Shown piece after piece: positions 3,590 through 18,594 of a stretch of DNA of 64,000 bases (position 1 is its first letter; every line of letters starts with the position of its first letter). A program made the position numbers and the translations under genes. This stretch comes from Oscillospiraceae bacterium (GTDB lineage Bacteria > Bacillota > Clostridia > Oscillospirales > Oscillospiraceae), in assembly GCA_902779945.1 (NCBI GenBank), contig CACZDN010000015.1, positions 1 through 64,000 of the forward strand, given 5' to 3'. Below the pieces are notes generated by a model. It saw only the letters and a program-made list of their open reading frames with translations, was not told where the DNA came from and ran no database searches.

Positions 3590-5731
3590 TCATGTGCTCT
3601 CGCCTCCGTCCATATCCTGTATCACCTGTTCAAAATCGTCGTAGCGGCGCAATACGCCGCCCTCGAGCCGGTAGATCGTGTCCGCACGGCGCAGGGTGCT
3701 CAGACGGTGGGCCACCATGATGACCGTGCAGCTGCCCATGATGGCGTCGATGGCCTCCTGCACCTGGCGCTCGCTTTCGCTGTCGAGGGCGCTGGTCGCC
3801 TCGTCCAGCAGGATGAGCTTCGGGTTTCGCAGCAGGGCTCGCGCAATGGAAATGCGCTGCCGCTGTCCGCCGGAGAGGTTGCCGCCGTTTTCGAGGATGG
3901 GAGCGTTCAGCCCCTCCGGGAGCGACGCGATCAGATCCTCGAGTCCCACGCGGCGGATGACGTCCATGACCTGCTCGGCGCTCACGTAGTTCAGACCGTA
4001 GACCAGATTGTCCCACAGCGTGCCCGAAAACAGTACGCTCTGCTGCGGCACGACGGCGATGTTCCGGCGGTAGGCGCCCTTCTCCAGCTCGTCCAGGTTT
4101 ACGCCGTCGATCAGGATATCACCGCTCTGCGCACCGTAGAGCCCCAGGATCAGGTTCAGGATCGTGGTCTTCCCCTCGCCGGATTTGCCGACGAAGGCGG
4201 CGCTTCCGCCCGCGGGCACGGTAAAGCTCACATCGTCCAGAACCGGGGGCTTGTCCGGCTCATACCCGAAGGAGACGTGCGAAAACGTGATCTCGCCCCG
4301 CATGGGGCCGGGAAGCCGGGCACTCCCGTTGCGCTCCACATCGCTCGCGTACAGGATCTCGTTCACGCTGACCAGGCTGTCGTAGCCCTGGGTGATCAGC
4401 GGCACCGCGTCCAACAGACGCTGGACGTTCGCGATGATGAGGTCGAAGATGGACTGGAACAGCACCAGCGTGCCGACGCTGATATGTCCGCCTGCCATCA
4501 GCAGGGCGGCCAGGCTGAGCGACAGCAGCCGCAGCCCCTGGAAGCCGCCGTAGGTGAGATTGTTGACGATGACGGTCTCGCGGTCGTAGGCCACGGCGGC
4601 CCGCTGCGCGCCGCGCACCTTTGTCAGGATGTCCCGGTACTCCGTCCGCTCGAGACCGTGGGCCCGGGTCAGGCTCTCCATCTCCAGCATCTCCTTGACG
4701 GCGGCGTTCACCTGCTCGTTTTGCCGGCGCATTCTGGCCCGTCTGTCCTGCAGGGGCTTCGAGAAGCGCCGCACCAGATACACGACCATCGGCACGATCA
4801 CGAGATAGAACACCAGCATCAGCGGGAAGGTTGACAGTGCGACCGCGATGATAAACAGCACGTCCTCGCCCAGATACAGAATTTCCATGAAGCGGTCGTA
4901 GATCAGCGTCTGGATGAACTGCACGTCGGAGGCCACCTTGGACAGGACCACACCCGACTGTGTCTCGCTGTGAAAGCGCATGGAGAGGGCCTGCAGCTTC
5001 TGCACCAGCGCCATGCGGAAGCCCGCCTCCACCGCTCTGGTGAAGCGGCGGTAGCAGCGGCTGTCCAGCCAGTAGCAGATGAGATTCACGGCCAGCGCCA
5101 GCACGGACGCGAGAATGTTGGTCAGCACGGGCCGCACGAAGAAGGACCCTGTATCCGTCACGATGTTGATGATGTTCGACACGAACACCGGCAGCAGCAG
5201 ACCCCCCAGATGCTTTACGAGCAGAATGATGACCGAAAGCGCGAAAAAGCCCCGGTGACTGCGCGCGATATACCGCAGCACGGCCAGCGGCTTCTGTGCC
5301 CCGTCCGGGTCTGCGTCCTGATAATAGGCGTAGATATCCTCCGTCAGGTCGACGGCCTCTCCCTTCCGGGCGAATACCCGGTATACATTCACGCCGCCCT
5401 GATAGCGGAAGCTGAAAAAGCTCATGTACTGCTCGAGGATGCAGCCGCTGATCTGCGTGTCGATCCCGTCGGCCCCCGTGTCCGGGGCCGCGTCGAGCAC
5501 GTCCGTCCGCTCCCCCGCGGCGCGGATCTCGATATGCCGGAACGGCCTGCCCCGCAGCGATACCCGGATCTCCGTACAGCCCATGCGAAGAAGGCGCAGC
5601 AGCAGCTCCTCACAGATCAGCGGGCAGATCCGCGCTCCGGCGCTCTCCGTGGCTGCGGCGGCATAGCGCTCCGCCAAAGCCACAGCCGCCGGAATTTCCG
5701 CCGCCGCACGTACCAAAACCAGATTGTCCAT
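3590..5731 (-). CDS. ABC exporter (fused TMD-NBD) with an extra N-terminal domain
   Basis: 713 residues. Residues 145-430 hold a six-helix exporter domain. The nucleotide-binding domain follows, with Walker A GKSGEGKTT (about 513), Q-loop VVPQQS, signature LSGGQRQRISIARALL, Walker B LILLDEA and switch VAHRLS, all intact. The first 130 or so residues are not part of a normal exporter. They contain CEELLLRLLRMGCTEIRVSL and a later GGVNVYRVF, which weakly recalls an RsbW-type histidine-kinase-like ATPase fold without its Asn and glycine boxes. Start set at MDNLVLV, since upstream codons look intergenic. It is the first gene of the operon with the acyltransferase-carrier fusion, ligase and secreted protein, and probably exports or flips their product. 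Confidence 0.9.
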   Translation of the reverse strand: MDNLVLVRAAAEIPAAVALAERYAAAATESAGARICPLICEELLLRLLRMGCTEIRVSLRGRPFRHIEIRAAGERTDVLDAAPDTGADGIDTQISGCILEQYMSFFSFRYQGGVNVYRVFARKGEAVDLTEDIYAYYQDADPDGAQKPLAVLRYIARSHRGFFALSVIILLVKHLGGLLLPVFVSNIINIVTDTGSFFVRPVLTNILASVLALAVNLICYWLDSRCYRRFTRAVEAGFRMALVQKLQALSMRFHSETQSGVVLSKVASDVQFIQTLIYDRFMEILYLGEDVLFIIAVALSTFPLMLVFYLVIVPMVVYLVRRFSKPLQDRRARMRRQNEQVNAAVKEMLEMESLTRAHGLERTEYRDILTKVRGAQRAAVAYDRETVIVNNLTYGGFQGLRLLSLSLAALLMAGGHISVGTLVLFQSIFDLIIANVQRLLDAVPLITQGYDSLVSVNEILYASDVERNGSARLPGPMRGEITFSHVSFGYEPDKPPVLDDVSFTVPAGGSAAFVGKSGEGKTTILNLILGLYGAQSGDILIDGVNLDELEKGAYRRNIAVVPQQSVLFSGTLWDNLVYGLNYVSAEQVMDVIRRVGLEDLIASLPEGLNAPILENGGNLSGGQRQRISIARALLRNPKLILLDEATSALDSESERQVQEAIDAIMGSCTVIMVAHRLSTLRRADTIYRLEGGVLRRYDDFEQVIQDMDGGEST

Positions 5732-5869
5732 CCCGCACCCCCCCGTGCCAAGACTGTTTTTTATCATCATAACACAAACCGGCCCCGCACGCCATCCCGA
5801 AAACGAAAAAAGCGGGGGCTTTGTGCCTGTCTGCACGGGTGCGGAACTGGGCAATTGTCTGCATCGCTA

Positions 5870-5914
5870 AAAGCGCCCCGCCTGATTCGTGTATAGCGAA
5901 AGGCGGGGCGCTTT
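5870..5914 (-). terminator. Terminator hairpin behind the RHH gene
   Basis: A 13-bp perfect inverted repeat (AAAGCGCCCCGCC / GGCGGGGCGCTTT) with a 19-base loop. On the minus strand it ends in TTTT and lies 35 bases past the stop of the small RHH gene, just before the exporter operon. Confidence 0.8.
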
Positions 5915-5948: not shown

Positions 5949-6143
5949 TTAATCCTTGATCTTGACGATCTTCACCGCATTTTCCAGTAAAAGATTGATG
6001 AGTTCATTTCTCGAGCGGTTTGTTTGCACGGAAAGATCATCCAGACAAGCGATCAGCTCATCTTTCATTCTGGCAGAGACGATTTTGTATCCGTCGTCTC
6101 CCTTCTTTGCCACCTTTTTCGTAATTATGATTTCCTCGCGCAT
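5949..6143 (-). CDS. Small ribbon-helix-helix (CopG/Arc-like) protein
   Basis: 64 residues from the preferred ATG (MREEIII), preceded by AAGGGGCGG; an in-frame ATG 24 bases earlier is possible but has no good ribosome binding site. The part YKIVSARMKDELIACLDDLSVQTNRSRNELINLLLENAVKIV fits a ribbon-helix-helix fold: one strand, a helix, a turn at TNRSRNE, and a second helix. Such proteins bind DNA as dimers and often regulate their own operon or act as antitoxins. No toxin gene adjoins it. It is divergent from the short secreted frame at 6232, and their shared 90-base gap holds a sigma-A promoter, so it may regulate there. Confidence 0.75.
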   Translation of the reverse strand: MREEIIITKKVAKKGDDGYKIVSARMKDELIACLDDLSVQTNRSRNELINLLLENAVKIVKIKD

Positions 6144-6173
6144 AAAACCGCCCCTTGTTTTTGACATTATGCC

Positions 6174-6203
6174 TTGACAAGGGCGGTTTTAGTACACTAT
6201 AAA
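6174..6203 (+). promoter_or_regulatory. Sigma-A type promoter (TTGACA / TATAAA)
   Basis: A perfect -35 TTGACA at 6174-6179 and -10 TATAAA at 6198-6203 with an 18-base spacer, 28 bases before the ATG at 6232. It lies in the divergent gap next to the RHH gene. Confidence 0.7.
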
Positions 6204-6231
6204 ATTATAGTTATGAAAGGTCGGACCTGTG

Positions 6232-6423
6232 ATGAAAACAATCCTCAGTTTTTTCCTCGCAGCGATTATGCTCGTGTCCCTTCTCCCCTCGGCACTGGCT
6301 GCCGGACAATTAAAAGACAAGACAGGCCCGGAATTAACCGACGCAGAGATAGCTTTCAACACATCAAACGCAGTATGGCACAAATTCTGCCGGAAAGATT
6401 TTGCTGTTTCTATCAGGGGATAG
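6232..6423 (+). pseudogene. Truncated secreted-protein gene: signal peptide plus stub
   Basis: 63 codons. Residues 1-23 are a clear signal peptide (MKTILSFFLAAIMLVSLLPSALA, cut after ALA), with a strong promoter and AAAGG upstream. After about 25 mature residues the frame enters sequence resembling an inner part of the family A repeat (compare 6371-6405 with 9018-9050), and the last 15 residues come from it. The simplest view is a secreted-protein gene whose 3' part was lost to a repeat insertion or rearrangement. A real short secreted peptide cannot be excluded. Confidence 0.5.
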
Positions 6424-6440
6424 TATAACAAACGGGACAA

Positions 6441-6485
6441 AACGGGGCTGACTCAAAACGATGAACGTTTTGAGTCAGCCCCGTT
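6441..6485. terminator. Bidirectional terminator hairpin downstream of ricT
   Basis: A perfect 20-bp inverted repeat (AACGGGGCTGACTCAAAACG) with a 5-base loop. It lies 13 bases past the ricT stop and is also positioned to stop transcription from the plus-strand stub. Confidence 0.85.
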
Positions 6486-6498
6486 CTTTATAATCCGC

Positions 6499-7884
6499 TC
6501 ATTTCTCTCCGCCCTTGGCTTTGGGCTTGCCGTGGTAGTAGCGGCGGCGGTTGGATTTGGGTTTTGCTCCCTCCTCCTTGACCGGATGGACCACGGTGTG
6601 GGCGGCTTCCTTTTTCGGCTTTGCGTTCTCTTTGCCGTTCTGGTTCTCTTTATTGCTCTGGGCGGCTTTGCCCGCGGGGGCCTCCCTGCCGCCCGTGTTC
6701 TCTTTGCCCGGGGCCTGGTCGGCGGCGTGGGCCTTGATCTCTACCTTCCCGCCCTTGCCGCGGTTTTTCCCGCCGCGTCTTGACCGTCCGCCCTGACCGG
6801 CCTTGTCCGCAGCGACGTCCTCCGGCGCGGGCTCCTTCCGGGGCTCCGTCTTGACCTCAACTCTGGCCTCGCCCGTGTGGGGCTTCCGGCCGCGGCGGCG
6901 GCGCTGGCTGCGCCTGGCCTCCTCGGACGACGGCTCCGGCGTGTCGATGAGGGCGGGGTCGTGGTACTGCGGCTCGACGAACCAGGCGTCAGTCTCCGGC
7001 TCCTCATTCTCCGGCTCGGGCTCCGGCACGTAGCGGAAGGTGGAGACGGGGGCCTCCCCGTCCCGGGGCCTGCCGCCGGGGACGGTGCACAGCTCGTTGG
7101 CCTTGTAGAGATGCAGGGTGTCGTCCCCGTCGCCGTCCAGGCGGACCTTGACGGTCTGGCGCAGAAGATTGACTTGCACGGCGGTTCCGAAACCGTCCTT
7201 GGTCTCGACGAAGGCGCCCTGGCGGGGGATCTTGCGGATCAGGTCCTCGTAGGCCTCCTGCTCGTACCGCAGGCAGCACATGAGCCTGCCGCAGCTGCCG
7301 GAGATCTTGGTGGGGTTGAGAGACAGGGACTGCACCTTCGCCATCTTGGTGGAGACGGGCTGAAAGTCGTCCAGAAACTGGCCGCAGCAGTAGGGGCGGC
7401 CGCAGATGCCGATGCCGCCGATCATCTTGGCCTCGTCCCGCACGCCGATCTGCCGCAGCTCGATGCGGTTTCGGAAGATGCTCGCGAGGTCCTTCACGAG
7501 TTCGCGAAAGTCGACGCGCCCGTCGGACGTGAAGAAGAACATGGTCTTGGTGCCCTCGAAGTTGCACTCCACGTCCACGAGCTTCATGTCGAGTCCGTGC
7601 CTGGCGATGCGCTCCTGGCAGATCTCGAAGGCCTCCTTCTCCCGCTTGACGTTGAGCTGGGCGATGCGCAGATCGTCGGGCGTGGCGATGCGCTGGACGG
7701 GGCGCAGCGGCTGGACCACCGCCGTCTCCATCACGCTGTGGTTGCCGCGGGTGCAGTCGGCGATTTCAAGTCCCTTGGCAGTGTCCACGATCACCTTGTC
7801 GCCGGTCTTCACCTGGAAGCCGTTGGGGGAGAAATAATAGCTCTTGCCCCGGTTTTTGAATTTGATGCTGACTACTTCAATCAA
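6499..7884 (-). CDS. ricT: PSP1-domain protein RicT (YaaT) with a long charged tail
   Basis: 461 residues against about 275 in Bacillus RicT. Residues 1-270 are the PSP1 core, with the cysteine pattern CGRPYCC and, about 35 residues on, GSCGRLMCCLRYE; in Bacillus these cysteines take part in the Fe-S-containing Ric complex that promotes RNase Y mRNA processing and affects sporulation and competence. Residues 290-461 are an added low-complexity tail rich in Glu, Pro, Lys and Arg (several RRGRK/NRGKGGK patches), which suggests RNA or ribosome contact. The start is TTG, with AGAGG 8 bases upstream, overlapping the holB stop by 8 bases. The holB-ricT order is conserved in Firmicutes. Confidence 0.92.
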   Translation of the reverse strand: MIEVVSIKFKNRGKSYYFSPNGFQVKTGDKVIVDTAKGLEIADCTRGNHSVMETAVVQPLRPVQRIATPDDLRIAQLNVKREKEAFEICQERIARHGLDMKLVDVECNFEGTKTMFFFTSDGRVDFRELVKDLASIFRNRIELRQIGVRDEAKMIGGIGICGRPYCCGQFLDDFQPVSTKMAKVQSLSLNPTKISGSCGRLMCCLRYEQEAYEDLIRKIPRQGAFVETKDGFGTAVQVNLLRQTVKVRLDGDGDDTLHLYKANELCTVPGGRPRDGEAPVSTFRYVPEPEPENEEPETDAWFVEPQYHDPALIDTPEPSSEEARRSQRRRRGRKPHTGEARVEVKTEPRKEPAPEDVAADKAGQGGRSRRGGKNRGKGGKVEIKAHAADQAPGKENTGGREAPAGKAAQSNKENQNGKENAKPKKEAAHTVVHPVKEEGAKPKSNRRRYYHGKPKAKGGEK

Positions 7885-13974: not shown

Positions 13975-14376
13975 TTGAAATACATCTATATCGACAGGTC
14001 CAATCTCAAACCTTGTTATAATGAAATCACAAAAGAGATGAAGCGCGTTTTCACTGTTCCACTTGTTATCTATCAATATATTGAAAATTTCTGTCTGCGC
14101 AACGGAATAGGCCGCAATGAGTTGATGTTTCCCCTGACAACGCGCGCCGTACAAAAGCAGCTTGCCCTTGTCTGTGACTACCTGGGTTATGAGGGGATAA
14201 GCACCCACAGCTTTCGGAAATGGTATGCCACAGAGATATACAAGAAGAACGGCTATGACATTGCCCTTATCCAGCGGCTATTACAGCACAGTTCCGCCGC
14301 CGTCACTCAGCGTTATATAGGCATTGAGCCGCAGAGGATTGAAAAAGCGATAGAGGGACATGCTGAGTTAATATAA
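13975..14376 (+). pseudogene. Tyrosine recombinase (integrase), C-terminal half only
   Basis: 133 codons carry the second half of a phage-type integrase catalytic domain: THSFRKWYAT (His-x-x-Arg), LLQHSSAAVTQRYIGI with the second His and the nucleophile Tyr. The DNA-binding N-terminus and the first catalytic Arg region are missing, and there is no ribosome binding site before the first ATG. It is therefore a 5'-truncated relic of an integrative element. This supports the view that 12.2-16.8 kb is an acquired island. Confidence 0.8.
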
Positions 14377-15978: not shown

Positions 15979-16122
15979 ATGGCGGAGAAGGACGAATCCC
16001 AGGCCGTGAGCGGCGGCGCAGGCTACAAACGCCAAGGGCAGAAATACAAGTCTCTCCTGGTCTGGCAGGTCTTGTTGAAGCGGACCGATGAAGAGCTCCC
16101 AATTTACGAACAGTTTGTTTGA
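15979..16122 (+). pseudogene. Probable N-terminal fragment of a YafY/WYL-type regulator
   Basis: 47 codons starting after AGGAGGG. The segment YKSLLVWQVLLKRTDEELPI resembles the start of the HTH domain of YafY-like WYL regulators (typically KLLxLxxxLLExTDExHPL), but the frame stops right after it. It looks like a broken gene; a short independent protein is less likely. Confidence 0.35.
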
Positions 16123-16147
16123 CGAACGCGGTGCGATAGGCTATAAT
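16119..16147 (+). promoter_or_regulatory. Promoter of the mntA-hepT pair
   Basis: TTGACG at 16119-16124, a 17-base spacer and TATAAT at 16142-16147, 31 bases before the mntA ATG. Confidence 0.65.
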
Positions 16148-16177
16148 ACAGATGACTTCACCAAAGGAGGGCTGTAT

Positions 16178-16465
16178 ATGCTGTCGGTTCAGCAGATCGC
16201 AGACGGGGTTCGTGTTGCGTCGCGGGAATATCCGCTTCGCAGGGTGGAACTGTTCGGCTCCTATGCCAATGGAAAAAACACTGCGCAGAGCGATGTGGAC
16301 CTTCTGGTCGAGTTTATGCAGCCGCGCGTGTCGTTGCTTACGATCAGCGCTTTCAAGTTCCGCATGGAGGAACTATTGGGGACGGAAGTAGACATTGTCC
16401 ATGGGCCGCTTCCGGAAGGAAGCCTGCTGGAGCTTGACAGGAGGATTCCGCTGTATGGAGCATAG
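16178..16465 (+). CDS. mntA: MntA-type nucleotidyltransferase antitoxin
   Basis: 95 residues, minimal nucleotidyltransferase. The catalytic motif GSYANGKNTAQSDVDLLVEF is the family GSx10DxD, with a later Asp in TEVDIVHG. Characterised MntA enzymes AMPylate the HepT toxin tyrosine and so neutralise it. AAAGGAGGG precedes the ATG. The hepT start lies inside its last codons (11-base overlap), the usual arrangement. It sits in the accessory island. Confidence 0.88.
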   Translation: MLSVQQIADGVRVASREYPLRRVELFGSYANGKNTAQSDVDLLVEFMQPRVSLLTISAFKFRMEELLGTEVDIVHGPLPEGSLLELDRRIPLYGA

Positions 16466-16784
16466 AGATCGGGTAATTCTGCAAAAGGTGCTCAGCGAAA
16501 TTGAAATTGCTCAAAAGATGATGGGCAATTGCTCGCTTGAACACTTTGAGCAAAACGAAATGCTGAAACGCGCGGTTTCCATGACCGTTATCAATATTGG
16601 CGAGTTGGTTAAAAGCCTTAGTGAAGAGACTCGCGCTGCCCATACGCACATTCCCTGGAAAGCGATTGCCGGATTTCGTGATATAGCTGCTCATAAATAC
16701 CAGACACTCCGCATGGAGGACGTTTATGAGACAGTTGCGGAAGATTTCCCGTCCTTGCGAGAGCAAATTAACAAGATCCTTTAA
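16455..16784 (+). CDS. hepT: HepT-type HEPN ribonuclease toxin
   Basis: 109 residues, all helical HEPN fold. The active-site pattern is present as RDIAAHKY (R-x4-H-x-Y), where the Arg and His are needed for RNA cleavage and the Tyr is the residue AMPylated by MntA. The preceding EHFEQNEMLKRAVSMTVINIGELVKSLS helix is typical. It probably forms a type VII-like toxin-antitoxin complex with the overlapping mntA product. An intrinsic terminator follows at once. Confidence 0.88.
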   Translation: MEHRDRVILQKVLSEIEIAQKMMGNCSLEHFEQNEMLKRAVSMTVINIGELVKSLSEETRAAHTHIPWKAIAGFRDIAAHKYQTLRMEDVYETVAEDFPSLREQINKIL

Positions 16785-16996: not shown

Positions 16997-17791
16997 TCAC
17001 CTCACGGCGTGCTTGCGTTTGAGGCTGAGATTGTCAGCGATCATGGCGATAAACTCCGAATTGGTGGGTTTTCCCTTGATGCCGCTCACGGTGTAGCCGA
17101 AGAACCTTTGCAGGGTCTCCACGTCGCCGCGGTCCCAGGCGACCTCGATGGCATGGCGGATGGCGCGCTCGACCCGGGACGGGGTGGTGCCGAAGCGCTT
17201 GGCGACCTCGGGGTAGAGGACCTTGGTGACGGCGTTGATCATGTCCATGTCCTGGATGGTGAGGATGATGGCCTCGCGCAGATACTGGTAGCCCTTGATG
17301 TGGGCGGGGACGCCGATCTCGTGGATCACATCGGTGACGACGGTCTCGAGGTTCGTGTCCGTCGGCTCGGGCTGCGCGTCGCGCCGGAAGTCGATGCCGA
17401 CGCCGGGGGTGCGCGGCAGGTCAAGGCTGAGCTGGCGGATGCGGGCCAGCAGGGCCTGTACGTCACAGGGCTTGGGGATGAAGTAGTCAGCCCCGCAGGC
17501 CGAGCACTCCGCAATGATCTTGGCGTTGACAAAGCCCGACAGCACGATCACATGGCAGGCCGCACTGCTGTCCCGCAGGCGGCGCAGCACCTCCAGCCCG
17601 TCCAGCTTCGGCAGCACCAGCTCCAGCAGGATCAGGTCCGGCTTGAGCTCCGCTGCCAGCTCCAGTGCGTCCATCCCGTCGGCCGCGATGCCGACAATCT
17701 CCATATCTCCCTCAGCGGCCATGAGCTCCTTGAGCTGCCGGCAGAATTCGCGGTTCGGGTCCGCGGTGAGTATGCGTATCCTGGTTTCCAT
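16997..17791 (-). CDS. spo0A: Stage 0 sporulation protein A with Glu at the phospho-acceptor site
   Basis: 264 residues, master regulator of sporulation. The C-terminal DNA-binding half is well conserved ([12 protein letters not shown], the recognition helix region [18 protein letters not shown], and [11 protein letters not shown]). The receiver is unusual: the residue equal to Bacillus Asp56 is Glu57 ([13 protein letters not shown], codon GAG at 17621-17623), and the acidic pair is Asp11-Pro12 instead of Asp-Asp. The switch Ser (VLSGF) and Lys (IPKPCD) are kept. Normal phosphorelay activation therefore seems impossible; Glu may mimic phosphate. ATG at 17791 has GGGAGG 9 bases upstream. Several TGTCGAA 0A boxes lie upstream, suggesting autoregulation. 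Confidence 0.93.
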
Positions 17792-17906: not shown

Positions 17907-18020
17907 TGTCGAACAATCGGGATTATCTGTTGACATAATACGCCGCATTTCTCCGGTATTCAACAGGGAAGGCCAAAAATATCCGCTTTTTTCGACGTGC
18001 GTTTGTCGAATTTTGTCGAA
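17907..18020 (-). promoter_or_regulatory. Cluster of 0A boxes upstream of spo0A
   Basis: TGTCGAA, the core of the Spo0A binding site, occurs at 17907-17913 and, as the full TTTGTCGAA, at 18002-18010 and 18012-18020. The last two are spaced 10 bases apart, one helical turn. A near match TTGTCGCA lies near 17856. They lie 115-230 bases before the spo0A start and imply that the regulator binds its own promoter region. Confidence 0.75.
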
Positions 18021-18027
18021 CGGGCGG

Positions 18028-18594
18028 TCAATCGTAGAGCAGCTCGAAGCTCTCATAGTGGTCGCCGGTGTAGTAGATCAGACCGTCGTTGGAGAAGACG
18101 ATGCGCTCCGCCCCGCGGGATTTCGCGCCGAGGGTGTTCACGTCGCACTCGGTCCAGGTGCGGCCTTTGGCCTTGGGGAGCAGCCCCTCGTAATTGCCGA
18201 AGCGGCTCCCGCCGATACACTTGCCGGGCAGCACCCGCTCCAGCGAGCCGCCGGTCCAGCCGGCGGCCTCGGCCTCCTTCTTGGTGACAAAGTTCGGCGG
18301 CAGGTGGCCGTAGGTGTGGATGTAGAGGGCGAGATCCTCCTTCGTGGTGTAGCTGCCGTCCTCATCCAGCGTCTCGCCCGCCGCGGGGTCCGCCGCAGGG
18401 CCGGGCGCTTTGGTCGGCTTCGGCGTCTGGGCGGGCGTCGGCTTCGGCGTCTTCGCCGGCGCGGGCGTGACAAGGGAAAGTGCAGGCTCGGGCTCTGCCG
18501 TCTGCGCGGGTTTGGCCGCGATCGTGTCGGGCAGAAAGAGATATACGAGCAGCAGCGCCAGAACCAGCACCGGCAGGATTTTTTTCAGCTTCAT
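18028..18594 (-). CDS. Secreted barnase-family ribonuclease
   Basis: 188 residues. Residues 4-22 form a signal or signal-anchor helix; residues 30-75 are an Ala/Pro/Thr/Lys linker (repeated TPKPT); residues 80-188 match barnase. Matching elements: YIHTYGHLPPNFVTKKEAEAAGW, GKCIGGSRFGNYEGLLP, then GRTWTECDVN with the catalytic Glu, ERIVFS with the catalytic Arg, and GDHYESF with the catalytic His. It should be an active extracellular guanyl-preferring RNase. No barstar-like inhibitor gene is seen nearby. AGGAGC precedes the ATG. It is upstream of spo0A on the same strand but separated by the 0A-box region. Confidence 0.92.
   Translation of the reverse strand: MKLKKILPVLVLALLLVYLFLPDTIAAKPAQTAEPEPALSLVTPAPAKTPKPTPAQTPKPTKAPGPAADPAAGETLDEDGSYTTKEDLALYIHTYGHLPPNFVTKKEAEAAGWTGGSLERVLPGKCIGGSRFGNYEGLLPKAKGRTWTECDVNTLGAKSRGAERIVFSNDGLIYYTGDHYESFELLYD

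Follow-up and report, generated by a model that had tools for sequence, protein, structure and literature searches.

Recurrent glutamate at the phospho-acceptor site of Spo0A in a family of gut Clostridia

Whether a cell forms an endospore is classically decided by the phosphorylation of Spo0A. The window analysed here (64,000 nucleotides of contig CACZDN010000015.1, assembly GCA_902779945.1, from an Oscillospiraceae bacterium) carries a spo0A gene with a glutamate codon at the phospho-acceptor position, which raises the question of how such a bacterium would enter sporulation. The presence of spo0A serves as a genomic marker of sporulation (PMC11536998, PMC8340488), and a review, in its accessible part, treats the Spo0A aspartate as conserved (PMC11210211); Asp56 is not mentioned in the accessible part of PMC6136694. 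We found no description of a natural Glu at the Spo0A acceptor site or of loss of the second acid in the literature covered, which lay mostly outside subscription journals.

The window spo0A and its receiver pocket

The gene, its two domains and the two altered codons lie as follows.

16997..17791, minus strand: spo0A, 264 amino acids, aspartate-less receiver type (E57, P12), from translation, alignment and TIGR02875
17435..17773, minus strand: receiver domain (Response_reg, PF00072), residues 7–119, 78 bits in the genome search
17027..17338, minus strand: Spo0A_C DNA-binding domain (PF08769), 156–158 bits
17621..17623, minus strand: codon GAG for Glu57, the phospho-acceptor position (B. subtilis Asp56), from translation and alignment
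17756..17758, minus strand: codon CCG for Pro12, the second acidic position (B. subtilis Asp11), from translation and alignment

The window protein, whose translation contains TADPNREF, scored 315 bits against TIGR02875, the NCBI equivalog model of Spo0A (cut-off, 200). Judged by this model and by alignment, the gene is a Spo0A ortholog, with the same two domains as canonical Spo0A (B. subtilis and C. difficile). D11, P12 and E57 align with D10, D11 and D56 of B. subtilis Spo0A, the sites of T86 and K108 (B. subtilis numbering) hold S85 and K107 in the alignment, and the DNA-binding half is 62% identical to that of the B. subtilis sequence used. The window protein thus shares with canonical Spo0A the D10, S/T86 and K108 equivalents, together with 0A-box-like sites in the promoter, and differs in having Glu for the acceptor Asp and Pro for the second acid. 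Among the features of a phosphorylatable regulator, the acceptor Asp and one acid of the metal-ion pair are missing (D11 is kept, position 12 is Pro), and Ser/Thr86 and Lys108 are retained.

Seventy class-level Spo0As gave a reference list of sites with 95% conservation or more. The window protein agrees with it at 53 of 54 sites of the DNA-binding half and at 12 of 13 receiver sites, residue 57 being the sole receiver mismatch (site 11, with 94% Asp in the same 70 proteins, lies outside this list). An AlphaFold model has an intact receiver (pLDDT 88–97 per block of ten residues up to residue 120); the PF00072 match, the model and Glu57 correspond to an aspartate-less receiver. The initial annotation, which had read GAG at the Asp56 equivalent, Pro at the second position of the acidic pocket and an intact DNA-binding half, is borne out on each of these points.

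Acceptor loss in this genome is specific to Spo0A. The acceptor site holds Asp in 26 of 27 receiver matches, the window spo0A being the sole exception, which rules out that receivers are failing throughout the genome. Asp occupies the second acidic position in 24 of the 27; the three matches without a confirmed second Asp are the window Spo0A (Pro), one with Gly and one that does not cover the site.

Acceptor and second-acid changes among relatives

We aligned 201 distinct full-length Spo0As (hereafter rows) from loci L001–L212; 210 loci gave one or two each, and none came from L002 (DNA-binding domain only) or L005 (internal stop). One route supplied 130 places out of 166 matching relatives, chosen mainly for the highest Spo0A_C scores, and a second kept the best 80 of 553; a single genome may have entered by both routes, as only identical proteins were merged. 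Two rows (L195_1 and L077) are second copies, and L077, from a genome (G034) that also gave L018, may be a stray contig. The class-level control comprised the 70 best scoring of 123 genomes above the cut-off (L262 from the same order and 69 from other orders).

The acceptor residue was Asp in 149 rows, Glu in 42, Asn in 7, Ser in 2 and Gly in 1. Glu occurred in 24 of the 72 genus rows (codon GAG in 23, GAA in 1), 3 of 18 from other genera of the family, 4 of 39 from other families of the order (which also held the 10 Asn/Ser/Gly rows) and 11 of 72 from named contigs, as against Asp in 69 of the 70 class-level proteins. Since other genomes share the Glu state, a sequencing error at residue 57 is ruled out. 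The closest row (L076, 92% identical to the window Spo0A) also has Pro and Glu, a combination common to 15 genus rows, including the nearest ones. An alignment of relatives had been proposed to see whether E57 and P12 are fixed; they are not, given that 48 of the 72 genus rows have Asp. Among named isolates, the acceptor is Asp in the Spo0A of Flavonifractor sp. An306 and Glu in the Spo0As of Flavonifractor sp. An100 and Clostridiales bacterium CCNA10. The single Glu protein of the class-level control (L304) belongs to another order, and its second acid is also gone (His).

Loss of the second acid extends further than the acceptor change. It is absent from all 90 family rows, Asp types included (72 from the genus and 18 from other genera), and present in 24 of 39 rows from other families of the order and 18 of 72 from named contigs. 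The second position is Asp or Glu in 42 of the 201 rows, compared with 67 of 70 class-level rows; split by acceptor, the second acid is present in 2 of 42 Glu rows and 33 of 149 Asp rows. In the alignment, Glu57 is thus part of a broader pattern that combines family-wide loss of the second acid with repeated Asp/Glu change. On a FastTree tree computed without the acceptor column, the Glu label changed 20 times (at least 10 of these changes were forced by well-supported branches) and the second acid 7 times, and the window Spo0A fell inside a Glu-only set of 14 (support 98). An IQ-TREE tree of 81 rows gave nine Asp/Glu changes, of which three were forced, and the well-supported set of 12 around the window protein includes one Asp row. 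The simplest order that we infer is that the second acid was lost first and that Asp and Glu then exchanged repeatedly. An independent-pairs test of second-acid loss against Glu had no power (on average, 9.5 of 10 pairs were the same in the second acid). Because the family lacks the second acid throughout, dependence on phosphorylation had probably weakened before the Asp changed; Glu would then have arisen repeatedly in a family already without that acid.

The other pocket residues were well kept with Glu: Lys108 and an acid at site 10 in 42 of 42 rows, Ser/Thr86 in 41 of 42 and, within the genus, Pro60 in 24 of 24 Glu rows (26 of 48 Asp rows), which argues for a coherent pocket in the Glu lineages. 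Rows with Asn, Ser or Gly at the acceptor site (L004, L022, L027, L102, L105, L107, L119, L124, L125 and L132, all from other families of the order) retained Lys108 in 6 of 10 and Ser/Thr86 in 8 of 10, and the accompanying loss of Lys108 in 4 of 10 marks a different route of pocket loss.

These patterns bear on the main rival explanation, namely that the receiver has become a pseudo-receiver for which phosphorylation is irrelevant: it would respond to a protein partner or small ligand, rather than to phosphate or level, and Asp and Glu would be interchangeable across the family. We consider this unlikely. Speaking for it are the 20 times that the Glu label changed on the FastTree tree, the disappearance of the second acid from 116 of 149 Asp rows and from every family row, and the erosion of other pocket sites in Asp-type genus members (Pro60, for example). 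Against it, Glu is the substitute in 42 rows and Asn, Ser or Gly in just 10, and the Lys and Ser/Thr residues are kept with Glu, which together suggest that the acidic side chain matters.

Glu-type aspartate-less receivers are known from CmrT of C. difficile, AtvR and ChxR (PMC4395418, PMC12548384), and Glu is the commonest substitute in such receivers (26%; PMC4395418). CmrT, which we regard by analogy as the nearest precedent for the window Spo0A, has E53 and a DGD motif and keeps Thr and Lys; its constitutive activity is the authors' inference, and E53A alone had little effect (PMC12548384). For AtvR, in which one acid is gone and Glu takes the place of the Asp, constitutive activity is likewise inferred (PMC12548384). 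In the accessible parts of these sources, CmrT and AtvR resemble the window protein in having Glu at the Asp site, in having lost one of the DD pair and in keeping Thr/Ser and Lys. Unlike the window protein, CmrT, AtvR and ChxR are not Spo0A: the window case concerns a regulator of sporulation, of which no other full-length copy was seen, and a whole family shows recurrent Glu in Spo0A.

Selection, copy number and spore genes

In pairwise comparisons within the genus (medians of filtered pairs), receiver dN/dS was 0.36 in 235 Glu–Glu pairs and 0.42 in 759 Asp–Asp pairs, indicating no extra decay after the change to Glu; the DNA-binding half gave about 0.11 in both. Relative to the DNA-binding half, receiver divergence exceeds that of the class control, with a ratio of 3.21 versus 1.84 in class pairs at a DNA-binding divergence of 0.15–0.25 (the former from pairs among 186 rows, that is, the 201 minus a 15-row canonical clade). 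At a DNA-binding divergence of 0.02–0.08, genus pairs had ratios of 5.39 (Glu) and 6.56 (Asp), compared with 4.24 for the canonical clade and 3.75 for the class, so that the contrast is weaker against the canonical clade. As far as these comparisons reach, there is no sign of a decaying gene at the window spo0A. The continued constraint on the receiver also speaks for the pseudo-receiver reading.

Spore genes were searched in 80 genomes that we selected: 31 with Glu, 10 with Asn/Ser/Gly, 31 with Asp, and 8 Spo0A-less genus members taken from the 33 relatives in which Spo0A_C gave no match. SpoIVA was present in 27 of 31 Glu, 10 of 10 Asn/Ser/Gly, 27 of 31 Asp and 0 of 8 Spo0A-less genomes; small acid-soluble protein (SASP) matches in 25 of 31, 10 of 10, 29 of 31 and 0 of 8; and SpoIIE (E < 1e-30) in 29 of 31, 10 of 10, 31 of 31 and 1 of 8, all SpoIIE matches lying below the curated cut-off of the model in all 80 genomes, including that of the window. 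Glu genomes therefore resemble Asp genomes, not Spo0A-less ones, with exceptions such as G126. The window's own genome (G000) has SpoIVA, SpoIIE, SpoIIGA and SASP matches. Oscillibacter valericigenes offers a related case: the type strain is reported to have Spo0A and all sporulation sigma factors and to be non-spore-forming in the laboratory (PMC3558957, accessible part). The Spo0A row of O. valericigenes strain An411 (L171), unlike the window protein, has an Asp acceptor, with Ala at the second acid.

The same counts bear on a decay scenario, in which Spo0A degenerates as lineages lose sporulation and Glu is one step on the way; we judge it very unlikely. Some Glu genomes do lack SpoIVA (4 of 31) or SASP (6 of 31): G126, from another family and 98% complete, has neither SASP nor SpoIIE matches, and G054 (93% complete) has no SpoIVA; the eight Spo0A-less genus members examined have neither SpoIVA nor SASP. 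However, the other three SpoIVA-less Glu genomes (G083, G037 and G091) are 64–75% complete, SpoIVA is missing about equally from Asp (4 of 23) and Glu (4 of 24) genus members, dN/dS is not raised in the Glu lineages and the promoter boxes described below are kept in the genus.

A search with the window protein recovered a full-length Spo0A in each of the 31 Glu genomes. The initial annotation had named a second canonical Spo0A, with the window gene as its paralogue, as what would refute it; this objection found no support, as no second full-length copy appeared among the matches listed (E to about 6e-9) in the window's assembly or in the 24 Glu genus genomes, eight of which are more than 90% complete. 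Within the genus and the range of matches listed, we accordingly rejected a second canonical copy. Across all 31 Glu genomes, a second full-length copy was among the matches listed only in G103 and G115, both from other genera; the second copy of G115 is divergent (L357). In G103, a Pro/Glu spo0A stands beside a second full-length Spo0A with a canonical pocket (L338), a possible division of labour. That a canonical Spo0A is simply missing from the window's assembly, which is 85.8% complete, is the least probable reading that we weighed: the incompleteness and the second copies of G103 and G115 give it some footing, whereas the matches listed for the 24 Glu genus genomes, and a promoter layout common to Asp-type orthologs, run against it. 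The only other Spo0A_C match in the assembly (L002:1486-1818, contig C19) is a 110-amino-acid, domain-only open reading frame. It adjoins a 424-amino-acid integrase, and matches to the DNA-binding half alone also occur in other genomes.

The genome encodes nine HisKA kinases, none of which could be linked to Spo0A in our search; for one (L310), the nearest receiver match lies about 3.7 kb away, beyond another kinase. These kinases leave some room for the window Spo0A still being phosphorylated, on Glu57 or a neighbouring residue, as does the chemistry, since phosphorylation of Glu is possible, with no bacterial signalling case known according to the accessible part of PMC4395418. We hold this to be very improbable, given that Pro replaces the second of the two metal-binding acids. 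None of the 80 genomes contained a Spo0E-like phosphatase domain, which also counts against it, though Asp types are alike in this respect (the B. subtilis control was positive). Constitutive activity, another possibility raised by the initial annotation, would face the difficulty that exchange of Asp for Glu alone is often insufficient, with Spo0A named as an example (work cited in PMC4395418, accessible part). Those laboratory-made Spo0A forms carry the same substitution as the window protein, whose receiver additionally lacks the second acid.

The spo0A promoter and neighbourhood

Three exact matches to TTCGACA, which we take to be the 0A-box consensus, precede the gene.

17907..17913, minus strand: 0A-box-like TTCGACA, 122 nt before the start codon
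18004..18010, minus strand: 0A-box-like TTCGACA at −219
18014..18020, minus strand: 0A-box-like TTCGACA at −229

The motif is not enriched in the window as a whole (8 occurrences versus 7.4 expected), the cluster before spo0A being the unusual part; first-order Markov sequences would give 0.05–0.07 boxes per 350 nt. Within the genus, a box lies no more than 4 nt from the −122 place in 20 of 24 Glu and 36 of 48 Asp rows, from −218 in 23 of 24 and 28 of 48, and from −228 in 23 of 24 and 42 of 48. All 24 Glu rows of the genus, and 46 of its 48 Asp rows, carry at least two exact boxes within 250 nt of spo0A, and their places largely coincide. Boxes are sparser beyond the genus: the 350 nt before spo0A hold at least one in 12 of 18 Glu rows (at least two in 1 of 18), in 43 of 101 Asp rows and in 3 of 10 rows with Asn/Ser/Gly, as well as in 33 of 67 class rows. 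As predicted sites, the boxes are no marker of the Glu state, because Asp-type genus rows have them too. The conserved cluster suggests that Spo0A of the Glu type probably controls its own transcription, as would be expected of its Asp-type relatives too. Perhaps, then, Spo0A is controlled by level, as the initial annotation had offered among its alternatives; the basis is the set of boxes in the spo0A promoter, in which Asp-type genus relatives are alike.

Before spoIIE, a candidate stage II target, exact boxes were rare within 300 nt (1 of 19 Glu genomes and none of 19 Asp genomes). With the span extended to about 700 nt, 8 of 19 Glu genomes, near relatives of the window's included, and 1 of 19 Asp genomes have one. 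The window's own genome has no exact box in the about 700 nt before spoIIE or the 1.5 kb before spoIIGA.

Taking pocket, copy number and promoter together, we lean towards the reading that the sole full-length Spo0A detected in the assembly has a receiver now of the aspartate-less Glu type, independent of phosphorylation and set by level. Points against it include the nine HisKA kinases, the sparser boxes beyond the genus and near spoIIE, the three forced changes on the smaller tree, and the missing SASP and SpoIIE matches of G126. Independence from phosphorylation by itself is probable on the sequence evidence. Ordinary aspartyl phosphorylation would be unable to switch this Spo0A on; Glu57, Ser85 and Lys107 may support a partly active, dimerisation-competent receiver; and entry into sporulation would be set by the amount of Spo0A, through a promoter that it probably binds itself and through inputs to spo0A transcription. 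More tentatively, and with the balance somewhat against it, the whole family of gut Clostridia may have abandoned aspartyl phosphorylation for starting sporulation, having first lost the second acid and then fixed Glu repeatedly, with entry governed by how much Spo0A, permanently competent and self-regulated, is present. If a large gut group keeps Spo0A and spore genes without the acceptor, kinase-based models need not apply to it, and Glu-type bacteria may decide on sporulation in another way. The sporulation trigger would then be testable with paired Asp and Glu isolates (An306 versus An100 and CCNA10).

The usual neighbourhood of spo0A is spoIVB–spo0A. In the window, the gene is flanked as follows.

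13975-14376, plus strand: tyrosine recombinase fragment, 133 amino acids, 2.6 kb beyond the spo0A 3′ end
16088-16784, plus strand: nucleotidyltransferase open reading frame, then HepT-like open reading frame, a toxin–antitoxin type pair, directly beyond the spo0A 3′ end
18028-18594, minus strand: open reading frame matching Pfam ribonuclease family PF00545 (72 bits), next to spo0A on its upstream side

In several genus members (loci L072, L046, L051, L052, L054 and L057, and genomes G073 and G033), the 3′ end of spo0A is duplicated 1–16 kb downstream of the gene, which gives this end the look of a site where mobile elements integrate; the window showed no such copy. In L072, the duplication involves positions 3722-3994 and 5971-6762, and a tyrosine recombinase open reading frame (5453-5908) directly follows spo0A; the recombinase fragment of the window is, by eye, very similar to it.
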